Source of the DNA: Vicinamibacterales bacterium
Lineage (GTDB): Bacteria > Acidobacteriota > Vicinamibacteria > Vicinamibacterales > Fen-181
Length of the DNA stretch: 64,000 nt
NCBI GenBank assembly: GCA_036504215.1
Contig: DASXVO010000086.1
Span: 62,001-126,000, forward strand
Reading direction: 5' to 3'
Shown: positions 16,502 through 48,539 of the stretch, one piece after another
How the letters are laid out: every line of letters starts with the position of its first letter
Numbering within the stretch: the first letter of the stretch is position 1
The notes under the pieces: model-generated
Told to the model about the DNA's origin: nothing
The model's database searches: none
Seen by the model: the letters and a program-made list of their open reading frames with translations, nothing else
Translations under genes and position numbers: made by a program

Positions 16502-16503
16502 AG

Positions 16504-16570
16504 ATGTGCGACGTGCTGGGTGCGAGGTGCGGAGTGCGGGTGGACCGTGCTTCGTGCCAGTGCTCAGTGC
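16504..16570. repeat. Degenerate GTGC-rich spacer
   Basis: After the carboxyltransferase stop, the spacer is built of near-repeats of a seven-base word: GTGCTGG, GTGCGAG, GTGCGGA, GTGCGGG, GTGCTTC, GTGCCA, GTGCTCA, GTGCCAT. The same style of sequence reappears at 17072-17125, on the other side of the next gene. Confidence 0.6.
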
Positions 16571-16646
16571 CATGCGGCGGATTCGGGTAGAGCGCGGCTT
16601 CGGGCCTGCGGGCGGCTCGCGGCGATGCAGGAGGCGGGTTTCAACC

Positions 16647-17063
16647 ATGGTCGAGAAGAAAGCGGGCACCGGAAGAGCGGCGGGCGCGCGGAGGAAGGCT
16701 GGCGACGTGACGGCGGCGTTGGCGGCGCGGATTGCGGAACTCGAGGAGCGGATTGCCAGGCTCGAGTCGGCTCGGGATGCGGCGGTGGCGAACCTCGTGG
16801 CGCCCGCACCTGCGCACATGGCCCCCCCTCGCCTGGCGCCAACACCCGTCGCCGCACCGGAATCCGAGCCGCTCGCCGACGCGGTGACGGTTGCGCACGA
16901 GGAGGTCACCGAGGAGGTCCTGCTGGTGATCTCGGCGGCAGTGGCGGCGTTCCTCGGCGAACGCGCCCATGTCCGACAGGTGCGACTCGTCACGTCCGAG
17001 GCCTGGGCCCAGCAGGGACGAGTCTCGGTGATGGCGTCGCACAGGTGGGCGGTGCACAGGTAG
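16647..17063 (+). CDS. Small OadG-like subunit of the carboxyltransferase complex
   Basis: 138 residues starting MVEKKAGTGRAAGARRKAG, with AGGAGG 12 bases upstream. The N-terminal ~50 residues are basic and include a short coiled coil (LAARIAELEERIARLESA). A low-complexity Ala-Pro linker follows, and the C-terminal block EEVTEEVLLVISAAVAAF ... WAQQGRVSVMASHRW is conserved in proteins encoded between carboxyltransferase and biotin-carrier genes in decarboxylase and transcarboxylase operons. The membrane helix of true OadG/MmdD chains is absent, so it is probably a soluble assembly or tethering subunit. Its function is inferred from position and the C-terminal block only. Confidence 0.6.
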   Translation: MVEKKAGTGRAAGARRKAGDVTAALAARIAELEERIARLESARDAAVANLVAPAPAHMAPPRLAPTPVAAPESEPLADAVTVAHEEVTEEVLLVISAAVAAFLGERAHVRQVRLVTSEAWAQQGRVSVMASHRWAVHR

Positions 17064-17071
17064 ACACGGGT

Positions 17072-17125
17072 GTGAAGTGCCATGTGCCCGGTGCTAGGTG
17101 CTGAGTGCGCGGGAAGGTGCTGGCT
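17072..17125. repeat. Second degenerate GTGC-rich spacer
   Basis: Near-repeats GTGCCAT, GTGCCCG, GTGCTAG, GTGCTGA and GTGC follow one another in the 93-base gap before the biotin-carrier gene, matching the style of the spacer at 16504-16570. Confidence 0.55.
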
Positions 17126-17156
17126 GCGAAGTGCGGCGGCCTGAGGGAGAGATTGC

Positions 17157-17561
17157 GTGAAACTCAAGATCACTGTTGACGGCAAGACGTACGAGGTCGA
17201 TGTGGAAGTGGCGCAGCCGGAGCACCCGATCTACGGCGTCGGCGGGTACTTCCCGATGTCCCCTGCGCGGGTGCCGGCTCCGGCGCCGGCCGTCGCGGCG
17301 CCGCCGCCGCTCGCCGCCGGCGAGGCTCCGTCCGCGCCGGTCAACGAGGAAAAAGTCTGCCGCAGCCCGATCTCTGGCATCGTCGTCCGGATCACCGCGA
17401 AGCCGGGTCAGCAGATCCAGATCGGCGATGGCGTGCTCGTCCTCGAGGCGATGAAGATGGAGACGGACATCACCGCGCCGGTCGCCGGCACGATCAGCAC
17501 AATCAACGTGAACGTCGGTGACAGCGTCAAGGGAGGACAGGTCCTTGCCGAGTTCGAATGA
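17157..17561 (+). CDS. Biotin carboxyl carrier protein (transcarboxylase 1.3S-like)
   Basis: 134 residues from a GTG at 17157 preceded by GAGGGAGA. The N-terminal strand MKLKITVDGKTYEVDVEVA, an Ala-Pro linker (PARVPAPAPAVAAPPPLAAG) and the biotinyl domain follow in the usual order. LVLEAMKMETDITAPVAG contains the biotinylated Lys in EAMKME, and VNVGDSVKGGQVLAEFE closes the domain. It shuttles carboxyl groups between the 12S-like and 5S-like subunits encoded upstream. The absence of a biotin carboxylase gene next to it supports transcarboxylase use, although a carboxylase encoded elsewhere could also charge it. Confidence 0.93.
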   Translation: MKLKITVDGKTYEVDVEVAQPEHPIYGVGGYFPMSPARVPAPAPAVAAPPPLAAGEAPSAPVNEEKVCRSPISGIVVRITAKPGQQIQIGDGVLVLEAMKMETDITAPVAGTISTINVNVGDSVKGGQVLAEFE

Positions 17562-17572
17562 CACGCCCCACG

Positions 17573-17596
17573 GGGGCAAGGCGGAAGCCTTGCCCC
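17573..17596. repeat. Perfect palindromic element between carrier and epimerase genes
   Basis: GGGGCAAGGC (17573-17582) and GCCTTGCCCC (17587-17596) form a perfect 10-bp stem closed by GGAA. It lies 11 bases after the carrier stop and 11 bases before the epimerase start, so it would fold in the polycistronic RNA. The core GGC-nGAA-GCC is shared with a shorter hairpin inside the mutase small-subunit gene (19231-19246). Confidence 0.7.
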
Positions 17597-17607
17597 ACAC
17601 GGACGGA

Positions 17608-18054
17608 ATGACGGATATCGCGGGCTTCCTCTGCGTCGATCACGTCGCGATCGCGGTCAAGACGGGTGACCTGGAACCGCAGGTCGACGCCTACAAGCTG
17701 CTCGGCTTCACCGAGATCCACCGCGAAGAGGTCCACGGCGGCGACCAGGTGCGCGAGGTGCTCTTGCGCGTCGGCCGCGGCCCGAACCTCATCCAGTTGC
17801 TCGAACCCCTCGGCGCCAACTCGCCGGTCCAGAAGCTGATTGACCGGAACGGCGGACGCGGCGGTTTCGCACATGTGGCGTTTCGCGTGAGCGACATCCA
17901 GAAAGCCTTCGCCGACATGAAGGCGAAGGGGTTCAATATCATCGACAAGGCCCCGCGGAAAGGTTCGCGGGGGACGACGGTGTTCTTCGTGCACCCGAAG
18001 TCGCGCGAGGATGCCCCCTTCGGGTTCCTCGTCGAGGTCGTGCAGGAAGGCTAG
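17608..18054 (+). CDS. mce: Methylmalonyl-CoA epimerase
   Basis: 148 residues. Two glyoxalase-fold modules are visible: LCVDHVAIAVKTGDLEPQVD with the metal-binding His at the start, and GGFAHVAFRVSDIQKAFADM with the second His; VHGGDQVREVLLRVG and GFLVEVVQE supply the remaining ligands. The family interconverts (S)- and (R)-methylmalonyl-CoA, joining the carboxyltransferase to the mutase encoded just downstream. A longer frame starting at 17518 would overlap the carrier gene by 44 bases and run through the palindromic spacer, so the ATG at 17608 behind GGACGGA was chosen. Confidence 0.92.
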   Translation: MTDIAGFLCVDHVAIAVKTGDLEPQVDAYKLLGFTEIHREEVHGGDQVREVLLRVGRGPNLIQLLEPLGANSPVQKLIDRNGGRGGFAHVAFRVSDIQKAFADMKAKGFNIIDKAPRKGSRGTTVFFVHPKSREDAPFGFLVEVVQEG

Positions 18055-18118
18055 GCGGAGAGGCAGGCAAGCGGGCGGCCAGGCGGACGCGCGGCCGTCC
18101 GGATGGACGGTAATCGAT

Positions 18119-19501
18119 ATGTCAGATTCGCACGAGAGCATCGACCGGATCTTCCCACCCGTGGCGACCGCGGACTGGGAAGCGCAGATACGGAAGGACT
18201 TGAAGGGCGCCGACTACGACAAGAAGCTCGTCTGGAAGACAGACGAGGGGATCGCGGTCAGGCCCTACTACCGATCCGAACACGCGACGAGGCGCGAGCC
18301 GATCGTGGCCGGACCTCGGTCGTGGGTGATGGCGCCGCCTGGAGACGAGCCGCCCCTGAGCGTCAGCGTCGTCGAGTACCACGACCAGGGTGCGACGGCG
18401 GTGCAGGAACTGGCGTTCGCGCTCGCACAGGGCGCCGACCTGCTGGCCGCCGGCACACCGGTCACCACCGTCGGCGTCGGCATCGGATCGAACTACTTCA
18501 TCGAGATCGCCAAGCTGCGCGCGCTGCGACTCGTTTGGGCGCAGGTCGCGGAAGCCTTCGGCGCGCCTGCCGGGATCCGCATCCACGCGCGCACGGGCGG
18601 CGAGGACAAGACCCTCTACGATCCGTACGTCAACATGCTGCGCGTGACGACGGAGGCGATCTCGGCGATCGCCGGGAACTGCGATTCGCTGACGATCACA
18701 CCGTGCCTCTTCGACGCGCACCTCGCGGAGAACGTGCACCACATCCTGCGCGAGGAGAGCCAACTGGACAAGGTGGCCGACCCGGGAGCTGGCTCCTACT
18801 CGATCGAGGCGCTGACCGACGCCGTCGCGGCCGACGCATGGACGCTGTTCCAGGCCATCGAGGCGGCGGACGGTTGGTCGACGTACCGGGCGTCCGGTGC
18901 CGCCGACTCGGCGGTCGCAACGTCGCGCCAGGCGCGCGACGAGGCCGTCGCCTCGCGACGTCGCGTCCTGGTCGGCACGAACAACTACCCGAACCTCCAG
19001 GAACGCGAGCTCGACGCGGCGGATCAGATGCCGGGCGGCTGGCGCCTGGCGTCGATGTTCGAGTCCATCCGCCTGCGTACGGAGCGGCACGCGAAGAAGG
19101 CCGGGCGCACGCCCCGCGTGCTGCTGCTCGAGCGAGGCGACCTCAGCATGCGCAAGGCGCGCGCGGCGTTCTGTCAGAATTTCTTCGGCTGCGCGGGTTT
19201 TGAGATCGTCCAACGCGACACGCTCGGCGTCGAGGCTGAAGCCTCGCCCGACTCGCGGCTTCCTGACCCCGCCAGGGACGAGCCGTACGACCTGGTCGTG
19301 ATCTGCAGTTCGGACGCAGAGTACCTGGCCCTGGCGCATGAGATCTGCCCGAAGGCCGCGGTGCCGGTCATCGTCGCCGGGAACCCGAAGGACCAGATCG
19401 ACGCGCTGAAGGCGGCGGGCATCGCCGACTTCGTCCACGTGTTGTCGAACGCGGTGGACACGCTGCGATTCTGGCAGGACAGACTCGGCATTGGACACTG
19501 A
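18119..19501 (+). CDS. mutA: Methylmalonyl-CoA mutase small (beta) subunit
   Basis: 460 residues, starting [20 protein letters not shown]. It has the family's substrate-barrel-like domain ([53 protein letters not shown]) and a C-terminal flavodoxin-like domain ([35 protein letters not shown]). The DxHxxG cobalamin motif is missing, as in other small subunits, so it is structural rather than catalytic. At 19231-19246 the coding sequence contains a CGAGGC-tgaa-GCCTCG palindrome translated as part of [18 protein letters not shown], an unusual loop before the last domain. It is followed 17 bases later by the catalytic subunit gene. Confidence 0.92.
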
Positions 19502-19518
19502 CAGGACGAGAGGCACCG

Positions 19519-21690
<2,172 letters not shown>

Positions 21691-21713
21691 AATTGGGCCA
21701 GCAACGGGCCGAG

Positions 21714-21795
21714 CGCCCGCTCACGCGGAGAGCGCAGAGATCGCACAGGAACCATGGTTGTTCCACGCGGTCTCTGTGTTCTTCGTGTGGAAATG
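21714..21795. repeat. Spacer with CGCGGAGAGCGCAGAG / CTCTGTGTTCTTCGTG words
   Basis: The 112-base gap before the MeaB gene contains CACGCGGAGAGCGCAGAGA and, 35 bases on, CGGTCTCTGTGTTCTTCGTG, which are loosely inverted versions of one another (AGAGCGCAGAG against CTCTGTGTTCT). It looks like a degenerate repeat rather than a gene. Confidence 0.4.
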
Positions 21796-21802
21796 ACATC
21801 AC

Positions 21803-22855
21803 GTGAACCGACCCCGCACCAGCGTTCGCCGGCGGCGGCTGACGGCCGCCGAGTACATCGACGGGATCCATCGGGCGGATCGCGGTGTGCTGGCGCGTGC
21901 CATCACGCTCGTCGAAAGCGAACTCCCTTCGGACGTGGATCTGGCCTCCGAGGTCATCGAAGCCTGCCTGCCCCGCACCGGCCGGGCGCGCCGCATCGGC
22001 ATCACCGGCGTACCGGGCGTCGGCAAGAGCAGCTTCATCGAGGCGCTCGGCACCTCCCTCACGCGGGAGCGCGCCGAGACGGTCGCGGTCCTCTCCATCG
22101 ATCCGTCGAGCCCCCTCTCGGGTGGCAGCATCCTCGGCGACAAGACGCGCATGGAGCGGCTCGCCACCGACGACCGCGCGTTCATCCGTCCGTCGCCGTC
22201 GCGAGGACACCTCGGCGGTGTGGCGCGGCGCACGCGCGAAGCGATGCTCTTGTGCGAGGCGGCGGGCTATCAGAACGTCTTCATCGAGACGGTCGGCGTC
22301 GGTCAGTCCGAGACAACGGTCCGATCGATGGTGGACTTCTTCCTGCTGCTGATGCTGGCGGGCGCTGGCGACGAACTGCAGGGGATGAAACGCGGAATCC
22401 TCGAGATGACGGATCTCATCGCCATCAACAAGGCCGATGGCGACAATCGCAAGCGGGCAGACCGCGCGCGCCACGACTACGAGAGCGCGTTACACCTCTT
22501 CCCCATGGCCGCTGATGGCTGGAACCCGCGCGTCGTCACCTGCTCGGCGTTCACCCGCGAGGGTGTGCCGGAGGTGTGGCAGATCGTGCTCGAGCACGAG
22601 GCGTTGATGCGACAGAACGGCTGGATGGCACGCCATCGTCAGGACCAGGCGCTGGAGTGGATGAAGGACGCGCTCCTCTACGGTCTCGAACAGGAAATCC
22701 GGCGCGACGATGCGATTAACGACCGGTTGGGCGCGATGGAGCAGGATGTGCTGCAGGGCAAGGTGAGCCCGTTCCGCGCCGCCCGCGACCTTCTGTCGCT
22801 CTTCCGACGCCACCGAGGCCACGCCGACACTCCCACAGCGCCATTCCGGGAGTGA
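21803..22855 (+). CDS. meaB: Methylmalonyl-CoA mutase-associated GTPase MeaB (ArgK family)
   Basis: 350 residues from a GTG at 21803. The G3E P-loop GITGVPGVGKSSFIEALG, the switch and base-3 regions (SIDPSSPLSGGSILGDKTRM, VFIETVGVGQSE) and the guanine-binding AINKADGDN are all present. MeaB guards and reloads the B12 mutase, blocking binding of damaged cofactor and helping its replacement in a GTP-dependent manner. Position directly downstream of the mutase subunits agrees. The helical C-terminus (QALEWMKDALLYGLEQEI) corresponds to the dimerisation arm. This is the last gene of the propionate operon. Confidence 0.95.
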   Translation: MNRPRTSVRRRRLTAAEYIDGIHRADRGVLARAITLVESELPSDVDLASEVIEACLPRTGRARRIGITGVPGVGKSSFIEALGTSLTRERAETVAVLSIDPSSPLSGGSILGDKTRMERLATDDRAFIRPSPSRGHLGGVARRTREAMLLCEAAGYQNVFIETVGVGQSETTVRSMVDFFLLLMLAGAGDELQGMKRGILEMTDLIAINKADGDNRKRADRARHDYESALHLFPMAADGWNPRVVTCSAFTREGVPEVWQIVLEHEALMRQNGWMARHRQDQALEWMKDALLYGLEQEIRRDDAINDRLGAMEQDVLQGKVSPFRAARDLLSLFRRHRGHADTPTAPFRE

Positions 22856-28034: not shown

Positions 28035-28327
28035 GGCAGCTCCTGGAATGACCAGTCGGCGGATGTCCGCCTATTCTTGCACGGTCGGGGGCGTCACGGG
28101 GGGCGGCATTCGCAGGAGTTCCCGGACCTTGGTCGGAAACCTCCGACGGACCACTGCGTCAGCGAGTCTCGAGGCAGAGCTGGTTCGGCGTCGCGGCCCC
28201 CAAACGTGCACTGGGCGCCCGGCGGTTGTAGAATAACAAGCTACCCGCCGTTTGGAAGGTCCCAGACAGAGGTGCGTTTTCGGCGGGAGGTGGGACCGCG
28301 GACACAACGAGGCCCGGAGGCCGAGCC

Positions 28328-30184
28328 ATGACGTTCGGTCGGATGCAGGATTCACCCCTCGAAGCCCCAGGCGAGCCCGTCGGCGCCGGGGACCGGGGGT
28401 CGGCTGCCGTCGAGGCGGAGGTCGCCCGCAGGCTGCAAGAGGCGCGTACGCGTCTCGAGCACCGGGCCCGCCTGGACACGCAGCCTATCGAGCACTATCG
28501 GCGCGAGAAGGAACGGCCATTCACCGCGGAAGAGCGAGACCGCGTCACGATTCTGATCGGTGGGCTGACCGCCCGCCACGAGCAGCTCATCACGGCGATC
28601 CTCGAGGCGTGCGGCCATCATTGCCAGCCGCTCCCACAGCCGGACCTCACCGCCTGCCTGGTCGGGAAGCAGTACGGCAACAACGGCCTGTGCAATCCGG
28701 CATATTTCACCGTCGGCGCGCTCGTCAACTATCTGCAGGCGCTCGAAGCGGGCGGCATGTCCCGAAAGGACATCGTCGATCGGTACGTCTTCTTCACGGC
28801 GGGGGGCTGCGGGCCGTGCCGCTTCGGGATGTACGAGGCCGAGTTCCGCCTCGCGCTCCGCAACTCCGGCTTCGAAGGCTTCCGCATCCTCACCTTCCAG
28901 CAGGACGAAGGTGTGAAGGCGAAGACCGGGGAGTCGGGCTTGCACCTGTCGATGCTGCTCGGCCTTGGAGCCCTCAATGCGTTCCAGGCGGCCGACGTCT
29001 TCAACGACATCTCGTACACGCTGCGGCCGTACGAGGTCGTCCCCGGGAGCACGAACCGCCTCCTGGCCGAGGCGATGGAACTGCTGGCTGAGGATTTCCG
29101 CACACGGAAACACATCTATCCGGAAGCGAAACTGCCGGGTTGGCTCGCCAGGCAGATTGCCAAGAAGAGAGCGACCCGACTGACGACCGAGATCATCATC
29201 AACGTCTACGCGCACCTCTACGGCAAGCCGATGACCGACGTCATGCGACGGTGCCGGGAGAAACTGCGCGGCATCGAGGTCGATCGGCTGCGCGTCAAGC
29301 CGGTCGTGAAGGTGACGGGCGAGTTCTGGGCGCAGTCGACCGAAGGCGACGGCAACTTCCGCATGTTCGAATTCCTCGAGCGCGAGGGTGCCCACGTCAT
29401 CGTCGATCCGCTCAGCACGTGGTTGATGTATCTGCTCCGTCAGGAGCACGCGCGCCTGCTGGACCGGCGGGGTCTGGACGTGCCGCGCGGCGGGCCGCTG
29501 GGCGCACGGCTTCGGGCGAAGATGGCGGACGAACTCAAGACGCTGAAGAAGCGGCTCGCGTTCTCGCTCGGGAACGCCATCTACCGCCACCGGTATCATC
29601 GGCTGTGCCGGGCGCTGGCCGACGTGCCGCACCACCTGATCGATCAGGAGGTCATCGCGAAGACGGCGCACCCGTTCTACCACAGCCTGTCGAGGGGCGG
29701 TGAAGGCCACCTCGAGGTGGGCAAGACCATCTACTACTCCACCAAGCTCGGCGCCCACATGGTGCTGAGCCTGAAGCCGTTCGGCTGCATGCCCTCCACC
29801 CAGTCCGACGGCGTGCAATCGATGGTCGCCGCGAAGATGAAGAACATCCTCTTCATCCCGATCGAGACGGCGGCCGAGGGCGAACTCCACGCCCACAGCC
29901 GCGTGCAGATGGTGCTCGTCGAGGCCCGCGAGCGGGCCGAGGCGGAGTTCGACCGCGCGCTGGCCGACACCGGGAAGAAACTAAGCGACATTCGACGCTA
30001 CGTCGAGGATCACCCTGAGCTGCGCGACCCGTTCCATCATGTCCCGCACCGACCGGGGGTGGCCGGCATGGCTGCCAACTTCGTACTGTACGTCAGCCAC
30101 CTGATGGACCGTGACGGCACCCGGCACCGCGGACGTGTCGCGGCGCCCGATCTGACAACCTCAGCGAACCAGCAGACACCATGA
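28328..30184 (+). CDS. 2-Hydroxyacyl-CoA dehydratase D-component-like / double-cubane protein subunit
   Basis: 618 residues. Cys residues cluster at 95, 99, 110, 122, 161 and 164, in ACGHHCQPLPQ, ACLVGKQYGNNGLCNPAYF and TAGGCGPCRFGMYEAEFR, and a late KPFGCMPSTQSDGVQSMVA adds another. These are the hallmarks of the HgdB/DUF2229-type iron-sulfur subunits. The family accepts ATP-driven low-potential electrons from HgdC-type ATPases; characterised members dehydrate 2-hydroxyacyl-CoA, reduce benzoyl-CoA or carry an [8Fe-9S] double cubane of unknown purpose. The overlapping next gene encodes the activase. A -10-like TAGAAT is at 28229-28234. The true substrate is unknown. Confidence 0.8.
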   Translation: MTFGRMQDSPLEAPGEPVGAGDRGSAAVEAEVARRLQEARTRLEHRARLDTQPIEHYRREKERPFTAEERDRVTILIGGLTARHEQLITAILEACGHHCQPLPQPDLTACLVGKQYGNNGLCNPAYFTVGALVNYLQALEAGGMSRKDIVDRYVFFTAGGCGPCRFGMYEAEFRLALRNSGFEGFRILTFQQDEGVKAKTGESGLHLSMLLGLGALNAFQAADVFNDISYTLRPYEVVPGSTNRLLAEAMELLAEDFRTRKHIYPEAKLPGWLARQIAKKRATRLTTEIIINVYAHLYGKPMTDVMRRCREKLRGIEVDRLRVKPVVKVTGEFWAQSTEGDGNFRMFEFLEREGAHVIVDPLSTWLMYLLRQEHARLLDRRGLDVPRGGPLGARLRAKMADELKTLKKRLAFSLGNAIYRHRYHRLCRALADVPHHLIDQEVIAKTAHPFYHSLSRGGEGHLEVGKTIYYSTKLGAHMVLSLKPFGCMPSTQSDGVQSMVAAKMKNILFIPIETAAEGELHAHSRVQMVLVEARERAEAEFDRALADTGKKLSDIRRYVEDHPELRDPFHHVPHRPGVAGMAANFVLYVSHLMDRDGTRHRGRVAAPDLTTSANQQTP

Positions 30185-33100
30185 CCGTTGCCGAACCGCG
30201 TTTCCTCCTCGGCCTCGACGTCGGGTCAACCACCGTCAAGGCCGTGGCGATAGATGCACGTACCGACGAACTCGTCTGGCGGGACTATCAGCGGCACGAG
30301 AGCCGTCCCGCCGAGAAGCTGCTCGAACTGCTCACGCGTCTGGAAGATGAAGCGGGCGTGGAGCGCGGCAGCGCGCGAGCGTTCATTACCGGGTCCTCCG
30401 GGGCGGCGTTTGCCGACCTCGTCGGAGCCCACTACGTCCAGGAAGTCGCCGCCGTCGCCCTGGCCGTCGAGCAGAAGCACCCGGACGCCCGGACGGTCAT
30501 CGAACTCGGCGGCCAGGACGCGAAGATCATCATCTTCGAGGCCGAGGACGAGGGGCGATCGCGCAAGACGGTGTCGATGAATGACAAGTGCGCCGGCGGC
30601 ACCGGCGTGGTCATCGACAAGATCTCCGCGAAGCTGAAGATCTCGTCCGAGGCGCTCGGCACGCAACCGTACGTCGGGCTGAAGATCTACCCGATCGCAG
30701 GCAAGTGCGGCGTGTTCGCCGAAACCGACATCAACGGTCTGCAGAAGCGCGGCGTGGCTGCCGAGGAGTTGCTGGCGTCGCTCTTCGACGCGATCGTCGT
30801 CCAGAACCTGACCGTGCTGTCGCGCGGCCATGCGCTGCCGCCCCACGTGCTGCTGCTCGGCGGCCCGCACGCGTTCATCCGCGGGTTGCGGGAGGCGTGG
30901 CAGACGCACGTGCCCGGGCGTTGGCGCGAGCGCGGGGTCGAACTGCCCGAAGGGACCTCTCCGGAGGATCTGATCGTGACGCCGCCGATGGCCGAGTACT
31001 ACGGCGCCTTCGGCGCAATCGAGTTCGCCCGGCGCGATCGAGAGGCCACGACCGACTACCTCGGGCCGTCGCGCCTTGCCGCGTCCGTGGCCCGCGGCCA
31101 CGAGGGCGTGCGTCGCGGTGCGACCGGCGTGGGCTTCTCGGGGATGGATCTCGCCGAGTTCCGGAAACAGTACGAGCGCCCAGCCTGGACGCCGCCGCCG
31201 CTCGAGCCCGGGCAGTTCATCCGCAGTTTCATCGGTCTCGATGCCGGTTCGACCTCCACCAAAGCCGTCATGCTGGACGAGGACGGACGCGTGCTGGCGA
31301 AGGCGTACCAGCTCTCGCGCGGCAATCCGATCGAGGACGCGATCGAGATGTTCGGCTCATTGCGCCGGCAGATCGAATCGCAGGGCGCGCGCACCGAGGT
31401 GTCGGGCGTGGTCACGACCGGCTACGCGAAGGACATCCTGAAGGACGTCTTCGCCGCCGATGCGGCGCTCGTCGAAACGGTCGCGCACGCACAGTCGGCG
31501 CTCCATTTCTACAAGGACCCGCACGTCATCGTGGACGTGGGCGGCCAGGACATCAAGATCATCGTCATGCACGGCGGCCGCGTGAAGGACTTCCGTTTGA
31601 ACACGCAGTGTTCGGCGGGCAACGGGTACTTCCTCCAGGCCATCGCGCAGAGCTTCGGCCGTCCGGTCGAGGAGTTCGCAGAAGCGGCGTTCACCGCGCG
31701 CGAGATGCCGGTGTTCGGCCAGGGTTGCGTGCTCTTCCTCCAGTCCGAGATCTCCAACGTGCAACGGCACGGCTGGAAGCCGGAGGAGGTTCTCGCGGGC
31801 CTTGCCGCGGTGTTGCCGAGAAACGTGTTCCTGTACGTGGCGAAGGCGCCGAACCTGTCGCGCTTCGGGTGGCGGTTCGTCCTCCAGGGCGGAACCCAGC
31901 GCAACCTGGCGGCGGTCAAGGCGCAGGTGGACTTCATCCGCGACAACTTCAAGGGGCAGGAGCGCCAGCCGGACATCGTGCTCCACGAGCACTGCGGCGA
32001 AGCGGGCGCCATCGGCGCCGGCCTCGAAGCGGTCCGGTTGTGGAAGCACGGCAATCAGACGCGCTTCATCGGCCTCGAAGCCGCCGAGCGGATCGCCTTC
32101 GAGACCCGCTGCGACGATGAGACGCGGTGCCATTTCTGCAAGAACGAGTGCGTGCGGACGTTCATCGACGTGACCGTCGCCGGCCCCGCGGCGACGCTCG
32201 CGGCCGAGACGCCGGCGGAGGTCGCGGCCGAAACGGCGGCGGCAGTCGAGCGAGTTGCCCATCGACGGTTTGTCGTCGCCGGCTGCGAGAAGGGCTCCGC
32301 CGAAGACCTCGCCCACATGCGCGACATCAAAGCCGCTGAGGACGCGGTGAAGGCGAGGACGCCGAACCTCGTCACCTTCGCGTCGCGGGAAGTGTGGAAA
32401 CTGCGGAACCCGGCGAATGTTGCCGATCCGCTGCCCCCCAAGGGGTGGACCGCCGCCGCCAAGCGCCGCCGCGAGCTGTACGAGAACCGCCACAAGGTGC
32501 GGATCGGGCTGCCGCGCGTGTTCAACATGTACGCGCTGGCCCCGTTCTTCACCGGCTACCTGCAGAGCGTCGGCGTGGACGGCAAGAACATCGTGTTCTC
32601 CGACTACACCAGCATGGAGATGTACCGGACGGGCGCGACGCGTGGCGCGATCGATCCCTGTTTTCCGTCGAAGGTGTCGCTCGCGCACGTCCACAATCTG
32701 CTCTTCGTGAAGCACAAGCGCACGCCGCTCGACTGCATCTTCTTCCCGATGATCGAGGTGCTGCCACCGCGTCTGCACGGCGTCCGGGCGAGCAACGCGT
32801 GCCCGACGGTGTCTCTGACACCCCAGACGGTGCGCGCCGCGTTCACCAAGGACGAAGACCTGTTCGCGCAACAGGGTGTCCAGTACCTGGCCGGCATCCT
32901 GGACATGGAGGACGAACCGCTCTTCCGGCGCCAGATGCTGGAGATGTGGGAGCCGCTACTCGGCCTCTCGTGGGAGGAGAACCAACGGGCCATCGCGGCG
33001 GGCCACCAGGCGCTGGCCGACTACGAAACGGCGGTGCGGACGGCAGCCCGGAAAGCGCTCGACGATCTCGAACGGGACAACCGGCTCGGCATCGTGCTGC

Positions 33101-33669
33101 TCGGGCGGCCGTATCATCACGACCCGGGCCTCAACCACGGCATCCCCGAGGAACTGCAGAAACTCGGCTACCCCGTGTTCTCCCAGCATACGCTGCCGCT
33201 CGACGAGGATCTGCTGGACCGGCTGTTCGGCGACGACGTGCGGAACGGCCTCATCAGGCACCCGCTCGACATCTCGGACGTCTGGAAGAACTCGCTCGCG
33301 GCCAGCAGCAACTTCAAGGTGTGGGCGGCGAAGTTCGCGGCCAGGCATCCCAATCTCGTCGCGGTCGAACTCTCCAACTTCAAGTGCGGCCACGACGCAC
33401 CGATCTTCGCGACGGTGGAAGACATCATCGAGAAGTCGGGAACGCCGTACTTCGGCTTCAAGGAAATCGACGAGAACAAGCCAACCGGCGCGATCAAGCT
33501 CCGGCTGGAGACGATTGACTACTCGTTGAAACGCGCCCGCGAAGAACTGCTCGATCGCGGCCGCCGCACCGATCGGATGGAACGCTGGCTTGCCGCCTAC
33601 GAACGGAGGCTGCGAAGACAACTCGCGCCGCCCGACGAATCGGAGAGTGGCGAGGCGGTCACCATGTAG
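30181..33669 (+). CDS. Fused double HgdC-like activase ATPase with DUF2229 domain
   Basis: 1162 residues, joined to the preceding gene by an ATGA overlap. Residues ~8-270 form a first ASKHA ATPase (LLGLDVGSTTVKAVAID, ELGGQDAKIIIF, NDKCAGGTGVVID, KCGVFAETDIN) with Cys137 and Cys176, the residues expected to hold the dimer-bridging [4Fe-4S]. A second ASKHA unit at ~350-620 repeats this (IGLDAGSTSTKAVMLDE, NTQCSAGNGYFLQA, GQGCVLFLQSEI). A Cys-rich knuckle (CHFCKNECVRTF) and a DUF2229 domain (IDPCFPSKVSLAHVHN, ASNACPTVSLTPQTV, FKCGHDAPIFATVED) complete it. It should use ATP to push electrons to very low potential for the partner subunit. Confidence 0.85.
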   Translation: MTVAEPRFLLGLDVGSTTVKAVAIDARTDELVWRDYQRHESRPAEKLLELLTRLEDEAGVERGSARAFITGSSGAAFADLVGAHYVQEVAAVALAVEQKHPDARTVIELGGQDAKIIIFEAEDEGRSRKTVSMNDKCAGGTGVVIDKISAKLKISSEALGTQPYVGLKIYPIAGKCGVFAETDINGLQKRGVAAEELLASLFDAIVVQNLTVLSRGHALPPHVLLLGGPHAFIRGLREAWQTHVPGRWRERGVELPEGTSPEDLIVTPPMAEYYGAFGAIEFARRDREATTDYLGPSRLAASVARGHEGVRRGATGVGFSGMDLAEFRKQYERPAWTPPPLEPGQFIRSFIGLDAGSTSTKAVMLDEDGRVLAKAYQLSRGNPIEDAIEMFGSLRRQIESQGARTEVSGVVTTGYAKDILKDVFAADAALVETVAHAQSALHFYKDPHVIVDVGGQDIKIIVMHGGRVKDFRLNTQCSAGNGYFLQAIAQSFGRPVEEFAEAAFTAREMPVFGQGCVLFLQSEISNVQRHGWKPEEVLAGLAAVLPRNVFLYVAKAPNLSRFGWRFVLQGGTQRNLAAVKAQVDFIRDNFKGQERQPDIVLHEHCGEAGAIGAGLEAVRLWKHGNQTRFIGLEAAERIAFETRCDDETRCHFCKNECVRTFIDVTVAGPAATLAAETPAEVAAETAAAVERVAHRRFVVAGCEKGSAEDLAHMRDIKAAEDAVKARTPNLVTFASREVWKLRNPANVADPLPPKGWTAAAKRRRELYENRHKVRIGLPRVFNMYALAPFFTGYLQSVGVDGKNIVFSDYTSMEMYRTGATRGAIDPCFPSKVSLAHVHNLLFVKHKRTPLDCIFFPMIEVLPPRLHGVRASNACPTVSLTPQTVRAAFTKDEDLFAQQGVQYLAGILDMEDEPLFRRQMLEMWEPLLGLSWEENQRAIAAGHQALADYETAVRTAARKALDDLERDNRLGIVLLGRPYHHDPGLNHGIPEELQKLGYPVFSQHTLPLDEDLLDRLFGDDVRNGLIRHPLDISDVWKNSLAASSNFKVWAAKFAARHPNLVAVELSNFKCGHDAPIFATVEDIIEKSGTPYFGFKEIDENKPTGAIKLRLETIDYSLKRAREELLDRGRRTDRMERWLAAYERRLRRQLAPPDESESGEAVTM

Positions 33670-39962: not shown

Positions 39963-41363
39963 CTATCCGTCCATCGGCCGGTCTGGCGGCGTCGGGGCGA
40001 CGAACCAATCCAGCTTCTCGCGCAGGCTGACGACCCCGCCGACAACGATGATCGCCGGCGGCGCGAGCCCGGCACGGCCGGCCTGGTCCGCAATGCTGGC
40101 CAACGGGGCGACGACCGTTCGCTGCGCCGCCGTCGTCCCGTTCTCGATGACTGCCACCGGGCACTGCGGATCGCGACCGTGGTCGAGCAGCTCCTTCGCG
40201 ATGGCCGCCAGATTGTGCAGGCCCATGAAGATGACGAGTGAGGCCGACGATTTCGCGTGACGCGCCCAGTCCACGGGCACCGGGGCGGTGCCGCATGCAT
40301 GCCCGGTCACGAAGACCAGTTCAGACGTGAAGTCCCGGTGTGTGAGCGGAATGCCGGCGTAGGCGGGCACCGCCACGCCCGCGCTCACGCCCGGCACGAC
40401 CTCGTACGCGATGCCGGCCTGCCGAAGCGCCTCGGCCTCCTCGCCGCCGCGTCCGAAGATGAACGGATCGCCGCCCTTGAGCCGGACCACCGTTCGTCCC
40501 GCCTGCGCCTGTTCGATGAGGAGGCTGTTGATCTCGGACTGCGGTCGCGTGTGGTGCCTGTCTCGCTTGCCCACGTAGATCCGGCTGGCACCAGGCTTGG
40601 ATAGATCGAGCAACGACGGATCCACCAACGCGTCGTAGACGATTGTGTCGGCAGCCTGGAGAAGACGACGGCCCTTGACCGTCAGCAGCTCGGGATCGCC
40701 GGGACCGGCGCCGACGAGAAAGACCTTTCCGTTCGACGACCTCGCGGGGGCCGGTTCACGCCTCGCGCGCGCGCCACCAAGTTCCGTGAGAATCGCGTCC
40801 ATCTGCGCCCGCTCCTCGGACGGCGAGCGCCCTTCGGCCTTGCAGCGGTCGCGCAGTTCACCGAGCCGCGCCGCCGCGTCCGCGTAGGCCGGTCCGAACC
40901 GCGCCTCGATCTCTTCCCGGATGTAGCGCGCGAGTGCCGGGCTGCGTCCGTTGGTGGAGATGGCGATGGTCAGATCGCCGCGACGGACAACGGCCGGGCT
41001 GATGAAGTCGCAGAGTTCAGGGTCGTCCACCGCGTTGAACCAGATACCCAGCTCGCGCGCTTCGGCTTGCACGGCACGATTCACCTGGGGATCCGACGCG
41101 GTCGCGTAGGCAAGACGGGCGCCGTGCAGGTCTCCGTTCCGGTAGCCGCGGCGCTCGAGCGTCAACTGCCCTGCGGCGCTCCATCGGTCGACGCGGTCCG
41201 TCACCTCCGGGCTCACGACGGTTACGCGGGCGCCCGCGCCGATCAACGACTCGACCTTGCGTTCCGCGATCGTGCCGCCGCCGATGACCACGACCGGCTG
41301 GCCGCTCAGATCGATGAAGATCGGATGGACCCACGTGGTTCGCCGTTCAGCCCCGACAGTCAT
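39963..41363 (-). CDS. cysG: Siroheme synthase (precorrin-2 dehydrogenase/ferrochelatase fused to uroporphyrinogen-III methyltransferase)
   Basis: 466 residues. N-terminal half: HPIFIDLSGQPVVVIGGGTI is the NAD-binding start of the CysG-A module, with NAVDDPELCDFISPAVVRRG and TNGRSPALARYIREEIE. C-terminal half: VFLVGAGPGDPELLTVKG, VRLKGGDPFIFGRGGEEAEAL and VPGVSAGVAVPAYAGIPLTHR are SUMT signatures. It makes siroheme from uroporphyrinogen III. Position right behind dsrN shows it supplies the DsrAB cofactor. It lies 30 bases downstream of dsrN. Confidence 0.95.
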   Translation of the reverse strand: MTVGAERRTTWVHPIFIDLSGQPVVVIGGGTIAERKVESLIGAGARVTVVSPEVTDRVDRWSAAGQLTLERRGYRNGDLHGARLAYATASDPQVNRAVQAEARELGIWFNAVDDPELCDFISPAVVRRGDLTIAISTNGRSPALARYIREEIEARFGPAYADAAARLGELRDRCKAEGRSPSEERAQMDAILTELGGARARREPAPARSSNGKVFLVGAGPGDPELLTVKGRRLLQAADTIVYDALVDPSLLDLSKPGASRIYVGKRDRHHTRPQSEINSLLIEQAQAGRTVVRLKGGDPFIFGRGGEEAEALRQAGIAYEVVPGVSAGVAVPAYAGIPLTHRDFTSELVFVTGHACGTAPVPVDWARHAKSSASLVIFMGLHNLAAIAKELLDHGRDPQCPVAVIENGTTAAQRTVVAPLASIADQAGRAGLAPPAIIVVGGVVSLREKLDWFVAPTPPDRPMDG

Positions 41364-41393
41364 TTCACCATCCCGATTCCGCCCCGCACCGCC

Positions 41394-42848
41394 TCATCGA
41401 CCGGCCGCCTTCGTCGCGGCGGCCACCAGCCCGTCCGCCCATGCTGGCGCGCCGAGTGCGTGCAGATGCGTGTAGCTCGCCCACACGTTGCCAACCACGA
41501 TCCCGTCCCGGCCTCCACCGCAGCCCGTGCCGCGCTCGATCGCGCAGGCCGTAGGAAGGTCGCCTGGAACGCGGTCTCCGGCGCCGACGATGCGCGAGTA
41601 GTGGAACTCGTGCCCTCTCAGTTCCTGGCCGCCTCCGAAGAACGGGTTGTCGCGGTCCACGCGAAGCCTGACGTACCCGTGGCCCTGCGGGCGGGAACCG
41701 ACTTCCACGTCGATCGGCAGCACGTCCGCCATGTCGTGACGGCGGCCCTGCCAGATGACGCTCCGGGCCAGGAGCATCAACCCGCCGCACTCCGCGTAGA
41801 TTGGCAGCCCGGCTTTCGCGCCGGCCCGGATCGACGTTCTGAGCGACACGTTGGCGGAGAGGGCGTTCGCATGCGTCTCCGGGAAGCCGCCGCCGATGTA
41901 CAGCGCATCGAGGTGACCAGGCAACGGCTCGCCCGACAGCGACGAGATGGGGACGAGCGTCGCGCCGCGCGCCGCCAGGGCCTCGAGATTTTCGGGATAG
42001 TAGAAGCTGAACGCGGAATCGCAGACGTACCCGATCGTCGGACCGGCACCGACGTCGCGGAACGCGTTCTTCCTGGACGAGTCGTTCGCGCGCCACATCG
42101 CCTGCGGAGGGCATTCCGCTGGTCCGGCTGCGCGGGCTGCCTCAATCAGCGCGCCCACGTTCACGTGTTGTCGGACCGCGTCGAGAGCGACGCGGCCGGC
42201 CTCCTCGATGGCTGGGTGCTCGGCTGGAGTGATGAGCCCCAAGTGCCGCCCCGGTAACCGCGCATCGTCCAGCCGGGGAATCGCACCCAGCACGGGAATG
42301 CCGCACTCGCGCTCGATCGCCTGCCGTACAACCGATTCGTGGCGCTCGCCCGCCACCTGGTTCAGGATGACGCCCGCCAGCGCGAGATCCGGGTCGAGCG
42401 CCTGGCAGCCGCGCACGCACGCGGCCGCGGTCCGCGTCATCTTCCGGACATTCAGGACGAGCACGACAGGCGCGGCGAGCGCTTTCGCCAGCACGGCGGT
42501 ACTGTCCGTGCCAGCGACGTCGGCCCCGTCGAACAGGCCCCGGTTGCCTTCGATGAGGTTCAGCGCCTCGTCGCGCGCTGCAGAGGCGGACCGTCCGTCG
42601 AGCGCGTGGCGGAAGAACGACGCGACCGCGCCCGCCGTCCCCATCAGGAACGTGTCGAGATTGCGAACCACGTCGTCGGACGCCCATCGCAACCAGGCGG
42701 CGTCGATGTAATCCGGTCCCTTCTTGAAGGCGCGAACACGGCAACCGGCTGCCCGCGCAGCCAGTGCCACGCCAATCGACACGAAGGTCTTGCCGGCATC
42801 CCCAGAGAGGCCCGCAATCACGAGACGGGGAAAGGCTTCGCCGTTCAT
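41394..42848 (-). CDS. dsrN: Siroheme amidase DsrN (cobyrinate a,c-diamide synthase family)
   Basis: 484 residues. The start at 42848 is chosen because it forms an ATGA overlap with the dsrP stop. The N-terminal dethiobiotin-synthetase-like ATPase has the P-loop VIAGLSGDAGKTFVSIGVAL and Mg site KKGPDYIDAAWL, VEGNRGLFDGAD-type sequence follows (IEGNRGLFDGADVAG), and the glutaminase half has YAECGGLMLLA with the catalytic Cys and HGYVRLRVDRDNPFF with GHEFHYSRI. The family amidates corrin carboxylates; in dsr operons the homologue DsrN is understood to amidate siroheme for DsrAB. The location between dsrP and cysG decides for DsrN over CobB, although a cobalamin role is possible. Confidence 0.85.
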   Translation of the reverse strand: MNGEAFPRLVIAGLSGDAGKTFVSIGVALAARAAGCRVRAFKKGPDYIDAAWLRWASDDVVRNLDTFLMGTAGAVASFFRHALDGRSASAARDEALNLIEGNRGLFDGADVAGTDSTAVLAKALAAPVVLVLNVRKMTRTAAACVRGCQALDPDLALAGVILNQVAGERHESVVRQAIERECGIPVLGAIPRLDDARLPGRHLGLITPAEHPAIEEAGRVALDAVRQHVNVGALIEAARAAGPAECPPQAMWRANDSSRKNAFRDVGAGPTIGYVCDSAFSFYYPENLEALAARGATLVPISSLSGEPLPGHLDALYIGGGFPETHANALSANVSLRTSIRAGAKAGLPIYAECGGLMLLARSVIWQGRRHDMADVLPIDVEVGSRPQGHGYVRLRVDRDNPFFGGGQELRGHEFHYSRIVGAGDRVPGDLPTACAIERGTGCGGGRDGIVVGNVWASYTHLHALGAPAWADGLVAAATKAAGR

Positions 42849-44038
42849 GATCTGCCCGGGCACTCCTCGCTCCTGGCCCCCGACTCCTGGCTCCTGACTC
42901 CCGAGGTAATCCTCAAGAACGCCGTCACCATCAATGCGCCGAGCGCCCAGATGCCGATGGTAATCGTCAGTTCAGGGAACGTTGGCGAGTAGTCGAACAC
43001 GGCTCCAAGCGCCGAAGGCACGAGGCCGCCGACGATCAGGCCGAGCCCCTTGTCGATCCACAGACCGACAAACGTCGCCAGGCACGCGACAACCAGCGTC
43101 CCCTCCCTGGCCCGCGTTCGCGGCGCCAGCAGCAGCCCGAGCGCGAGCGCCAAGAGCCCGGCGGAGCTCCACATCCAGGGCACCAGGGCGGCGTGGCCCG
43201 CGAGGCCCGCATAGAGATACCGGAAGTGCGCCACGTGCTCCGGAACCTGGCTGTAGAAGACCGTGAACACCTCGACCAGGACGAGGAATACGTGAACGGT
43301 CACCGCGTACGCGACAAGCACGGCCAGTTTCTGGAGCGCCTCCCGGCCGACATCGACGAGCCTCAGTCGACGGGCCACGAGGCACAACAGGATCAGCAGC
43401 GCCGGACCGGCTGCGAACGCCGATGCGAGGAAACGCGGCGCGAGGATGGCGGTCAGCCAGAATGACCGTCCGGGCAGGCCGCTGTAGAGGAACGCGGTGA
43501 CGGTATGGATGCTGATCGCCCAGGGGATCGACACGATGATCACGGGCCGGATCCACCGAGGTGGTGCGATGTCGTTCCTCTCGGCTTCGAGCGTCACGCG
43601 GGTGATCAGCACATTGAGCAGCAGATAGCCGGCCAGCGCCGCCATGTCCCAGAACATCATCGATCCGGGCGTGGGATGGAGCAGCACGTTGAGCACGCGC
43701 GAGGGCCGCCCCATGTCGACCACGATGAACAGGACGCACATCGTCACGGCCGCTATGGCGAGGAACTCGCCGAGAATCGTGACGCGGCCGAACACACGGA
43801 AGTCGTGAAGGTAGTAGGGCAGCACGACCATGACGGCAGACGCAGCCACGCCCACGAGGAACGTGAACTGGGCGATGTAGAGGCCCCAGACGATGTCGCG
43901 GCTCAGCCCGGTGATGCCCAGGCCGGCCTGCAGCTGCAGCCAGTAGCACCACGCGCCCACGCACACGACGGCCAGCAGCGCGCCGGTCCACGCCCAGTAT
44001 CCTCGTCCGCCGCGCAGCGCTTTCTCGAGCATGAACAT
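42845..44038 (-). CDS. dsrP: DsrP, NrfD-type quinone-interacting membrane subunit
   Basis: 397 residues, AGGA site upstream. About ten hydrophobic helices (for example YWAWTGALLAVVCVGAWCYW, TILGEFLAIAAVTMCVLFIV, WIRPVIIVSIPWAISIHTVT) match the NrfD/PsrC family. DsrP anchors the DsrMKJOP complex and exchanges electrons with the quinone pool together with DsrO and DsrJ. The C-terminal RSQESGARSEECPGRS is an added low-complexity tail encoded by a repeat. It follows dsrO after 66 bases and overlaps dsrN by ATGA. Confidence 0.93.
   Translation of the reverse strand: MFMLEKALRGGRGYWAWTGALLAVVCVGAWCYWLQLQAGLGITGLSRDIVWGLYIAQFTFLVGVAASAVMVVLPYYLHDFRVFGRVTILGEFLAIAAVTMCVLFIVVDMGRPSRVLNVLLHPTPGSMMFWDMAALAGYLLLNVLITRVTLEAERNDIAPPRWIRPVIIVSIPWAISIHTVTAFLYSGLPGRSFWLTAILAPRFLASAFAAGPALLILLCLVARRLRLVDVGREALQKLAVLVAYAVTVHVFLVLVEVFTVFYSQVPEHVAHFRYLYAGLAGHAALVPWMWSSAGLLALALGLLLAPRTRAREGTLVVACLATFVGLWIDKGLGLIVGGLVPSALGAVFDYSPTFPELTITIGIWALGALMVTAFLRITSGVRSQESGARSEECPGRS
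42862..42905. repeat. Tandem CTCCTGGC-like words at the end of dsrP
   Basis: ACTCCTCGCTCCTGGCCCCC is followed by ACTCCTGGCTCCTGACTCCC. These near-repeats are translated as the polar tail RSQESGARSEE of DsrP, which looks like extra sequence added after the last membrane helix. Confidence 0.55.
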
Positions 44039-44104
44039 CGATAATCCTGGCTTGCGGCGTCCGGCCTGCGGTCATCGCCACGCCGCCTCGAGCCCAGGCC
44101 AGCC

Positions 44105-44842
44105 CTAGATGAGGTAGTACACCTGCGGCCTGGTCCCCAACTCCGGTTTGCGGCGCATCGTGTAGCGTGAACCTGTCAATTGTCGAATCGGCGACGCCGG
44201 ATCACGGAGGTCGCCGAAAACGATCGCCCGTTCGGGGCAGGCCTCGACGCACAACGGCTGTTCGCCGCGCGCCAGCCTCTCGTCGCAGAACGTGCACTTC
44301 TCGACGACGCCCTTGGTCCGCGTGGGATACCCGGGGTCCAGCGTGGTGACGTGCGGGCGCGGGTCGACCCAGTTGAAGGAGCGTGAGCCATACGGACACG
44401 CCGCCATACAGTAGCGGCAGCCGATACACCGATGCTCGTCCATCATCACCACGCCGTCCTCACGTTTCCACGTCGCCCTGGTCGGGCAGACGCGAACGCA
44501 GGGAGGGTTCTCACAATGGTTGCAGAGCACGAGCACGGGGCGTCCACCTAGCGGCGCCATGCCCTCCCCACCATCCTCGCTGGCGAAGGCGTCCTCGGCC
44601 CGCTCCTTCCAGATCCACTTCACCTCGTGCTCGCGGTCCGGGATCGGCGGTACATTGTGCGCCCGATGACACGCGTCGATGCAGGCACGGCAACCGTCCT
44701 TTTGCAGACATTTGCCCGGATCGATGGCCATCGCCAATCGACGCCCGCCCGTACCAGCGGTTGCGCAGCCCATGATGGTGCCGGCCGCCGCCCCGAGGGT
44801 CGAGAGACTTGCCAGACGGAGGAAGCATCGGCGCGTGGTCAT
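44105..44842 (-). CDS. dsrO: DsrO, periplasmic four-cluster ferredoxin with Tat signal
   Basis: 245 residues. The start overlaps the dsrJ stop as ATGA. TTRRCFLRLASLSTLGAAAG is a twin-arginine signal. Cys groups follow for four [4Fe-4S] clusters: CLQKDGCRACIDACH, CNHCENPPCVRVCP, CIGCRYCMAACPYG and CTFCDERLARGEQPLCVEACP. DsrO passes electrons between DsrJ and DsrP on the outer face of the membrane. Size and motif spacing match known DsrO. Confidence 0.95.
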   Translation of the reverse strand: MTTRRCFLRLASLSTLGAAAGTIMGCATAGTGGRRLAMAIDPGKCLQKDGCRACIDACHRAHNVPPIPDREHEVKWIWKERAEDAFASEDGGEGMAPLGGRPVLVLCNHCENPPCVRVCPTRATWKREDGVVMMDEHRCIGCRYCMAACPYGSRSFNWVDPRPHVTTLDPGYPTRTKGVVEKCTFCDERLARGEQPLCVEACPERAIVFGDLRDPASPIRQLTGSRYTMRRKPELGTRPQVYYLI

Positions 44843-45219
44843 CGTGATTCCTTGCCGGCCACGTGGCACTCCCAGCACGCGGGTTTCACGCTGACGTACG
44901 CGTGGCAGCGGTCGCAGAAACCGGCCTTCTGGTGACAGCCCAGGCACGTGCCGGTCAGGCTCATCCGAAACTGCCGACCATCGTTCGTCGTCATCATCCG
45001 GACACCCGTACGCACGACCGAGTCGCGCCAGTCGGCCAGCAACCGCATGTGCGTGCGTCGCATGACGTCGGTCGGCGCCACGCACTTCGTCTCGCCCACG
45101 GGACGAACCAGAACGGGCCCGTCTGACACCGGATGGCTGGCCCGCGCGCTCCAGGCGGGCCAGGTGACCGCCGCCAGGAACCCCACGAGGCCGGCGAGAA
45201 TCAGCGCCCGCTCACGCAC
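44839..45219 (-). CDS. dsrJ: DsrJ, triheme cytochrome c
   Basis: 126 residues. An N-terminal helix (ALILAGLVGFLAAVTWPAW) is a signal or membrane anchor. Three heme-c sites are visible near the C-terminus: CLGCH, CDRCH and CWECH, the hallmark of DsrJ. ETKCVAPTDVMRRTHMRLLA holds the conserved Cys thought to be an unusual heme ligand. The gene overlaps dsrK by eight bases and dsrO by four. Confidence 0.95.
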   Translation of the reverse strand: MRERALILAGLVGFLAAVTWPAWSARASHPVSDGPVLVRPVGETKCVAPTDVMRRTHMRLLADWRDSVVRTGVRMMTTNDGRQFRMSLTGTCLGCHQKAGFCDRCHAYVSVKPACWECHVAGKESR

Positions 45220-46831: not shown

Positions 46832-47766
46832 GCGTCGGGATCCCTCTCGAGCGGCAGGCCCGCCGTTCGCATCTTCTCTCTGAACTCGTCCTCCCACTCC
46901 TGATAGGTGTGAACCTTGACAGGGGCGTTCCACGGGTTCACGTGGCGGCGACGCCGGCTGTCATTGGCCTGGTTGCGCGTGGGGCTGAGCCACACACCCG
47001 CCGCGTGCATCAGCTTGGTGAACGGGAACATTCCCACACACAACGACACCGACAGCAGGTGCAGGACGAACCAGGTGCCCGGCGCGGCCGGCGCGGTCGG
47101 CCGCAACGCGGCCAGGCTCAACGTGAATTGCTCGATTGCCGCCAGGTCCGGCCGCACGACGTAGCGCATCACGACACCCGTGCCCGCGCTCGCCAGGAGC
47201 AGCAGCAAGACGACGTAGTCGATTGGGAGCGACAGATAGCGCAGCAGCGGATTCCAGAGCCGGCGGACGAGCAGGTAGGTCAACGCACCGAGGACGACGA
47301 CATCCGAGACATACCAGACCGGTGATCCGACCTCCAGAAACCCGTCGACCGACGCCAGCACTGTGGCCACGACGGGCGCCGGTTCCACGAACAGCCGCAG
47401 GTGCCTGAGGACGATCACCAGCAGCGCCCAATGAAACGCCATCGCCCCGAGCCAGAGCGCCTTCCGCTCGATGAACGCCAGTCGCCCGACCGGGCCGCCG
47501 GCAGGCTGCAGCCGCCGGACGCGCGTATCCCTGAACAACGAGCGGAAGAGCAGCACCTCGAGCAACATCCGGCCCGCGACGCCCAGCCAGCCCCGGGGGC
47601 TCTCCAGCCGGCCCGGCGCAATCCAGGTCAACGATGCCTGCTGACCGCTCGTCGTGGGAATCCGGAACGGCACGGGCGTCGCTGCCCAGCGCCACACACG
47701 CCACGCCACGCCGCCGAGAAACAGCGCGGCGGCGGCATACGGCAACACGATGAGCAGCACGGTCAT
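46822..47766 (-). CDS. dsrM: DsrM, membrane cytochrome b subunit
   Basis: 314 residues. Six or so hydrophobic helices with His residues suited to heme b (AFHWALLVIVLRHLRLFV, TWFVLHLLSVSLCVGMFPF) and the signature loop LSPTRNQANDSRRRRHVNPWN near the end, which is typical of DsrM/NarI-like subunits. It passes quinol electrons to DsrK. It starts four bases inside the dsrT-like gene and overlaps dsrK. Confidence 0.95.
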   Translation of the reverse strand: MTVLLIVLPYAAAALFLGGVAWRVWRWAATPVPFRIPTTSGQQASLTWIAPGRLESPRGWLGVAGRMLLEVLLFRSLFRDTRVRRLQPAGGPVGRLAFIERKALWLGAMAFHWALLVIVLRHLRLFVEPAPVVATVLASVDGFLEVGSPVWYVSDVVVLGALTYLLVRRLWNPLLRYLSLPIDYVVLLLLLASAGTGVVMRYVVRPDLAAIEQFTLSLAALRPTAPAAPGTWFVLHLLSVSLCVGMFPFTKLMHAAGVWLSPTRNQANDSRRRRHVNPWNAPVKVHTYQEWEDEFREKMRTAGLPLERDPDACP

Positions 47767-48536: not shown

Positions 48537-48539
48537 GGT

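Follow-up and report, generated by a model that had tools for sequence, protein, structure and literature searches.

The activities of PlsA and Ger were shown earlier by anaerobic expression in Escherichia coli. PlsA/PlsR and Ger share a set of four domains, Act1, Act2, Red1, and Red2, and act on lipids with ester bonds, which they reduce to vinyl or alkyl ethers (PMC12838417, PMC13274423). PlsA/PlsR is encoded by two genes in Clostridium perfringens and by one in Enterococcus, Lactococcus, and Bifidobacterium; orthologues of plsA, together with plasmalogens, have also been reported from Listeria (PMC9702350). The proposal for PlsA involves sequential electron reductions, protonation, and dehydration (PMC8788747). 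A layout with two activation domains (BB) has been tied to alkyl ethers, although according to the same source PlsA and Ger are not distinguishable by sequence alone, nor is a vinyl from an alkyl product (PMC13274423). Here, we analyze a pair of adjacent genes, P1 and P2, in a 64,000-nucleotide stretch (the window) of contig DASXVO010000086.1 from a Vicinamibacterales bacterium, and suggest that they probably, if by no means certainly, encode an ATP-driven lipid ester reductase of the PlsA/PlsR-Ger superfamily. The pair comprises the following features:

28328–30184, forward strand: P1 (618 residues), a Red2-type, PlsR-like reductase subunit (open reading frame; 36 homologues; profile match to PlsA-type Red2)
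28541–29968, forward strand: Red2 domain of P1, residues 72–547 (cysteine rows, profile, AlphaFold2 model)
30181–30184, forward strand: ATGA overlap of the P1 stop and the P2 start (open reading frames, bases)
30181–33669, forward strand: P2 (1162 residues), an Act1-Act2-linker-Red1 protein (open reading frame; two PF01869 matches; PF09989)
30193–31050, forward strand: Act1 ATPase unit, P2 residues 5–290, with C137 and C176
31216–32070, forward strand: Act2 ATPase unit, P2 residues 346–630, with C477 and C516
32128–32286, forward strand: four-cysteine linker of P2, C650-x2-C653-x3-C657...C702 (invariant cysteines)
32458–33570, forward strand: Red1 domain, P2 residues 760–1130 (PF09989), with C827, C874, and C1069

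Both the open reading frames and the bases agree with the first-pass annotation of this DNA in describing two ATGA-coupled genes; GGAGG at 28316–28320 lies ahead of the ATG of P1. Pfam matches in P2 are two ATPase units of the BcrAD_BadFG type (PF01869, E 5.3e-64), confirming the predicted pair of activase units, and DUF2229 (PF09989, E 2.6e-44). The latter is one of the two Cys-rich D-type domains that had been proposed; the other is P1, which has no match in Pfam or NCBIfam and whose kinship is visible by profile and fold. We take P1 to be similar to COG3581. The domain content supports the initial idea of an ATP-driven reductase in which two activase units are combined with two D-type domains, and the observed architecture is that of PlsA/PlsR and Ger, down to the Red1 domain with three cysteines (DUF2229) that is a feature of this superfamily.

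For comparison we used six PlsA-type proteins, from Listeria, Fusobacterium animalis, Collinsella, Acetoanaerobium, Subdoligranulum, and Haliovirga, drawn from plasmid records and considered PlsA-type by annotation, layout, and kinship. Cysteines were counted in 37 P1 rows and 30 P2 rows, five shorter P2 rows having been dropped. The bridging pairs C137/C176 and C477/C516 of P2 are kept in 30/30 rows, as are C827, C874, and C1069 of its Red1 domain. In P1, C122, C164, and C487 are invariant (37/37), and C161 is nearly so (35/37). All six references retain every invariant cysteine of P2 and also C122, C164, and C487 of P1, whereas C161 occurs in just one of them. The linker cysteines C650, C653, C657, and C702 are present in 30/30 pair rows, 6/6 PlsA-type rows, and 12/12 other acidobacterial rows; this invariant four-cysteine linker, possibly an extra Fe-S site, is an addition to the first-pass annotation. 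Two P2 homologues (L062 and L069) carry Cys-rich N-terminal tails (e.g., SSCSSGSCSSGGSCGSG) that are absent from the P2 of the window.

The cysteine counts bear directly on the type of cluster. In BzdNO, six cysteines hold an [8Fe-9S] cluster and three hold a [4Fe-4S]-OH2 cluster (PMC11971306). Three invariant cysteines each in Red1 and P1 would fit the latter kind. The pair had initially been likened to double-cubane proteins, i.e., to enzymes such as the double-cubane cluster protein (DCCP, YjiM) that reduce small molecules at an [8Fe-9S] cluster. The best structural match of the P1 model is indeed DCCP (7yyl_A), which ranks first both in Foldseek (E 1.2e-3, probability 1.00, no hit falling below 1e-3) and in VIA-align (Z 10.3, root-mean-square deviation (rmsd) 5.0, 261 residues). 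However, DCCP and BzdN have a six-cysteine cluster, as against three invariant cysteines per domain here, plus the near-invariant fourth in P1; P1 has no convincing hhalign match to a set of 2-hydroxyacyl-CoA dehydratase (HAD) profiles that contains YjiM; PF06050 is found neither in the pair nor in the genome; and HAD and Bzd proteins match P1 in fold to a similar degree. A double-cubane protein is thus hardly credible. The models themselves (AlphaFold2; mean predicted local distance difference test scores of 83.6 for P1, with 32 of 37 rows as input, and 82.7 for P2, with 27 rows) also place BzdNO and HAD subunits among the first Foldseek hits of P1. 2-Hydroxyisocaproyl-CoA dehydratase (3o3n_B) follows in VIA-align with Z 8.8 over 276 residues, and between it and 7yyl_A stand cobalamin-domain proteins with similar Z over approximately 110 residues. 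In fold, P1 resembles DCCP, Bzd, and HAD alike. Of the ATPase units of P2, Act2 superposes on 4ehu_B (VIA Z 31.1, rmsd 1.9, 257 residues) and Act1 on the DCCP reductase 7yyl_E (VIA Z 24.4). A profile search of P1 against the PDB gave 16 weak, unrelated rows.

The kinship of the pair with the references was observed at several levels. The Red2 profile of the references matches P1 with hhalign E 9.4e-36 over 404 columns; in the same kind of comparison, Red1 matched neither HGD-D (PF06050) nor P1 convincingly (probabilities of 12% and 0.5%, respectively). Residues shared by P2 and the references, for example H39, Q87, G139, G177, S200, Y415, T433, S478, and T660, are absent or rare in 12 other acidobacterial rows. 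A quick tree of 66 rows recovers the pair clade (30 rows) with support 100 and the group of six references with 98, and sets both on one side (100 in the Shimodaira-Hasegawa-like approximate likelihood ratio test), opposite two other kinds of relatives, fused acidobacterial proteins and those of C76 type. A second, careful tree, built from 66 single ATPase units with 12 of the 30 pair rows chosen, joins Act1 of the pair with that of the references at 100/100 and Act2 at 100/99. Six single-unit activases, including E. coli YjiL and the dehydratase activases of Azoarcus, Sphingopyxis, and Rhodococcus, are located elsewhere.

This placement decides against a canonical 2-hydroxyacyl-CoA dehydratase or class I benzoyl-CoA reductase, which we regard as very improbable. 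The ATPase units and the P1 fold are shared with HgdABC, HadBCI, BzdNOPQ/MbdNOPQ, and DCCP/DCCP-R (YjiM/YjiL), and the type of activase is the same, so that the description as 2-hydroxyacyl-CoA-dehydratase-type holds at the level of superfamily and fold. Beyond that level it does not: those systems consist of separate small subunits with PF06050 and with single-unit activases, which the trees put outside the groups of the pair plus PlsA. Membership in HGD-D is ruled out, as PF06050 has no match in P1, P2, or the whole genome (0 matches; E. coli, T. maritima, and M. jannaschii controls were positive) and no convincing profile match was obtained. Benzoyl-CoA reductase identity is likewise ruled out by the trees and by NCBIfam scores far below cut-off: 134.2 bits of the 578 needed for BcrA, 85.6 of 312.85 for BcrD, and 91 of 380.2 for BzdQ. 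The outcome that the first-pass annotation had named as its refutation, a clear position within an established dehydratase group whose pathway genes lie elsewhere in the genome, did not occur.

Homologues of P1 were found at 36/36 loci compared (L036–L071) and homologues of P2 at 34/36, far beyond chance. Where both genes are present (34/36) they are always on the same strand, and P1, the Red2 gene, comes first in 33 of the 34; the order is inverted only at L070 from Chloroflexi. The split, originally regarded as a peculiarity, is thus the rule in this clade: the two-gene form is old and regular, a trait of the clade. The accompanying statement that elsewhere the parts form one long protein or small subunits is correct, as illustrated by the fused protein of Listeria (L080, 1475 residues) and the small subunits of Monoglobus (L150). 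At least seven phyla are represented: the named records span Acidobacteria, Planctomycetota, Myxococcota, Gemmatimonadota, Hydrogenedentota, Chloroflexi, and Bacteroidetes, together with a Thioalkalivibrio metagenome-assembled genome and a fragment of Candidatus Eisenbacteria; since the records are metagenome-assembled genomes, single phylum placements may be wrong. A reversed two-gene clade was not described in the literature searched, whose coverage did not extend to the original PlsA and Ger papers.

By sequence, then, the pair clade forms a branch of its own among the bacterial enzymes that convert ester to ether membrane lipids, and hence its substrate may be a membrane lipid. The first-pass annotation called the substrate unknown; strictly this stands, but the likeness to PlsA and Ger, which it had missed, points to ester-linked glycerolipids. 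The pair resembles PlsA/PlsR in the Act1-Act2-Red1-Red2 layout, all cluster-type cysteines, residue signatures, and the Red2 profile match. It resembles Ger of Thermotoga maritima and Desulfatibacillum alkenivorans in having two activation domains, a likeness of published layout and not of sequence, and differs from Ger in being two genes.

Several observations weigh against a lipid substrate. The stem of the pair clade in the quick tree is long (2.13 changes per column), the program flags long branches meeting, and the clade is sister to the PlsA references, not nested within them; neither Ger nor C. perfringens PlsAR is represented among the latter. In PlsA/PlsR proper the Act-Red1 gene comes first, as in Fusobacterium animalis (975 + 404 residues), or is fused, whereas here the Red2 gene precedes; and P1, at 618 residues, is about 200 longer than the 404-residue Red2 of Fusobacterium. 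Raw BLAST scores are equivocal: P2 gave 310–442 bits with the references and 370 with the fused acidobacterial protein L109, while P1 gave approximately 79–84 bits with the Red2 of four references, 59 with that of Subdoligranulum, nothing at 1e-4 with that of Fusobacterium, and approximately 67–96 with C76-type Red2, overlapping the reference scores. BLAST alone does not separate reference from C76-type Red2 for P1, so the placement rests on the trees, residues, and profiles. No lipid gene constantly adjoins the pair at the 36 loci. The neighbours in the window are common only to the nearest relatives, L056 and L057, except for weaker ABC-F matches at five other loci. Finally, occurrence within the phylum is patchy: P1 matches at 1e-10 were found in 28 of 297 genomes, one of which (G203) matches only weakly and inside a long fused frame, and another query and threshold gave 39 of 396.

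The long stem, the enlarged P1, the reversed gene order, and the absence of a constant lipid neighbour could be read as signs of the same machine acting on another substrate, namely, a reductase or radical dehydratase for a small molecule or CoA-ester whose likeness to PlsA reflects common descent only. The C76-type and fused relatives, showing that the superfamily has several branches, point the same way. We consider this an appreciable possibility, albeit one that falls short of probable: agreement with the PlsA references extends to many residues outside the cluster sites, and the pair is not accompanied at the 36 loci by any conserved pathway gene, such as one for a CoA-transferase or a dehydratase. 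Lipid ester reduction is the best explanation, but an unproven one, because the clade is long-branched and sister to the PlsA references.

If the pair is a lipid ester reductase, the two ATPase units of P2 would pair within the one chain as an intramolecular dimer of the HgdC type, with one bridging [4Fe-4S] cluster held, by analogy with HgdC, by C137, C176, C477, and C516. Low-potential electrons might enter through the four-cysteine linker, and ATP hydrolysis would fire them into Red1 of P2 and into the P1 subunit, each with a presumed three-cysteine [4Fe-4S] site. The reduced site could then, as kinship suggests, reduce a membrane glycerolipid at its ester carbonyl; protonation and loss of water would follow and yield an ether of the vinyl or alkyl kind, in line with what has been published for PlsA and Ger.

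The surroundings of the pair vary. The comparison of co-occurring genes suggested in the first-pass annotation revealed no constant operon partner across the 36 loci, and partners are lineage-specific. A TetR regulator is directly upstream of P1 at two loci; TetR genes also precede the Collinsella and lie near the Acetoanaerobium PlsA-type genes, and have been reported likewise for E. faecalis pls (PMC9702350). The lgt gene is directly upstream of the pair at two loci, a ferredoxin-like gene is nearby at three, and a radical S-adenosylmethionine (SAM) gene of approximately 400–480 codons adjoins the pair at six, including two where it lies between P1 and P2 (L044 and L065). TetR, lgt, and radical SAM neighbours fit a membrane-lipid theme, each at few loci. 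Three radical SAM genes were located as follows:

L044, 8748–10193, reverse strand: radical SAM gene
L065, 9715–11004, forward strand: radical SAM gene
L061, 5906–7156, forward strand: radical SAM gene

Together with the pair, such an enzyme could form a two-step modification system, e.g., for membrane-spanning lipids, with the partner lost or moved in the lineage of the window. In addition to the adjacency at 6/36 loci, this radical SAM gene occurs in 24 of 297 genomes, and 10 of these carry the pair (hand-counted), an overlap that takes no account of kinship. This proposal nevertheless appears unlikely: the other 30 loci lack the gene nearby, the source genome has no match to it at E 1e-60, and the best PDB match of the protein is cytosylglucuronate decarboxylase, tetraether synthase (7tol) being only fourth (E 7.8e-6, across the shared core). 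Among the NCBIfam models shown, the radical SAM protein exceeds the cut-off of none.

At five loci (L039, L040, L041, L043, L049), a small protein of approximately 100–130 residues is encoded 3' of P2; at L041 (6180–6503, reverse strand) and L049 (3662–3958, reverse strand) its gene touches or overlaps the end of P2, and at L039, L040, and L043 it is followed by a ferredoxin-like gene.

PF01869 matches occur at six places on four contigs of the source genome, one of them below cut-off: two in P2, two in a second relative on contig C76, and the rest on C28 and C16. The C28 protein (L076, 29754–30521, reverse strand) scores above cut-off and belongs to an 848-residue open frame. The relative on C76 (L004, 14000–30000) likewise has two ATPase units and Red1, followed by a Red2 gene, but differs from P2 in sequence (~27% identity over matched parts), gene order, and tree branch. 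It adjoins genes for an aromatic amino acid lyase, an AMP-ligase, a DegT aminotransferase, a lipid A acyltransferase, a GT2 protein, and an MMPL protein. A tie between the C76 relative and its aromatic-lyase/MMPL neighbourhood was ruled out, such a neighbourhood being seen at 0/10 other C76-type loci.

The early remark that no acyl-CoA genes adjoin the pair holds for the three neighbours tested; further off, at 13327–22852 (forward strand) and separated from the pair by two opposite-strand genes, is a methylmalonyl-CoA gene set comprising carboxylase/transcarboxylase parts, two mutase subunits, MeaB, and a candidate glyoxalase-type epimerase. At 39966–51897 (reverse strand), the window contains a dissimilatory sulphite reductase locus, in which DsrA, DsrB, DsrM, DsrK, DsrO, and DsrP pass the NCBIfam cut-offs; it also holds the siroheme synthase CysG and a CobB-type amidase, presumably DsrN-like. 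Given this locus, anaerobic life is quite likely within the reach of the source organism, and an enzyme sensitive to oxygen would be at home there.

Branched tetraethers of bacteria serve as temperature and pH proxies, and the formation of ether bonds in Acidobacteriota is described as unclear in the account consulted (PMC11868695). PlsAR homologues have already been proposed for the synthesis of branched glycerol dialkyl glycerol tetraethers in Solibacter usitatus (PMC10087280, section 4.4). As a tentative extension, the pair clade could supply the ester-to-ether step that is still missing from the synthesis of ether lipids, and perhaps of branched tetraethers, in many Acidobacteriota and in some other phyla. 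It would then be a cousin of PlsA/Ger that evolved independently, has an enlarged, separately encoded Red2, and perhaps tolerates oxygen better. Should it not be a lipid enzyme, the clade would be an unexplored ATP-driven reductase spread over at least seven phyla. A defined two-gene clade, set apart by a clear signature from the two other kinds of relatives in acidobacterial genomes, offers concrete candidates for the Solibacter usitatus proposal, and through it the origin of the ether bonds in Acidobacteriota becomes directly testable.

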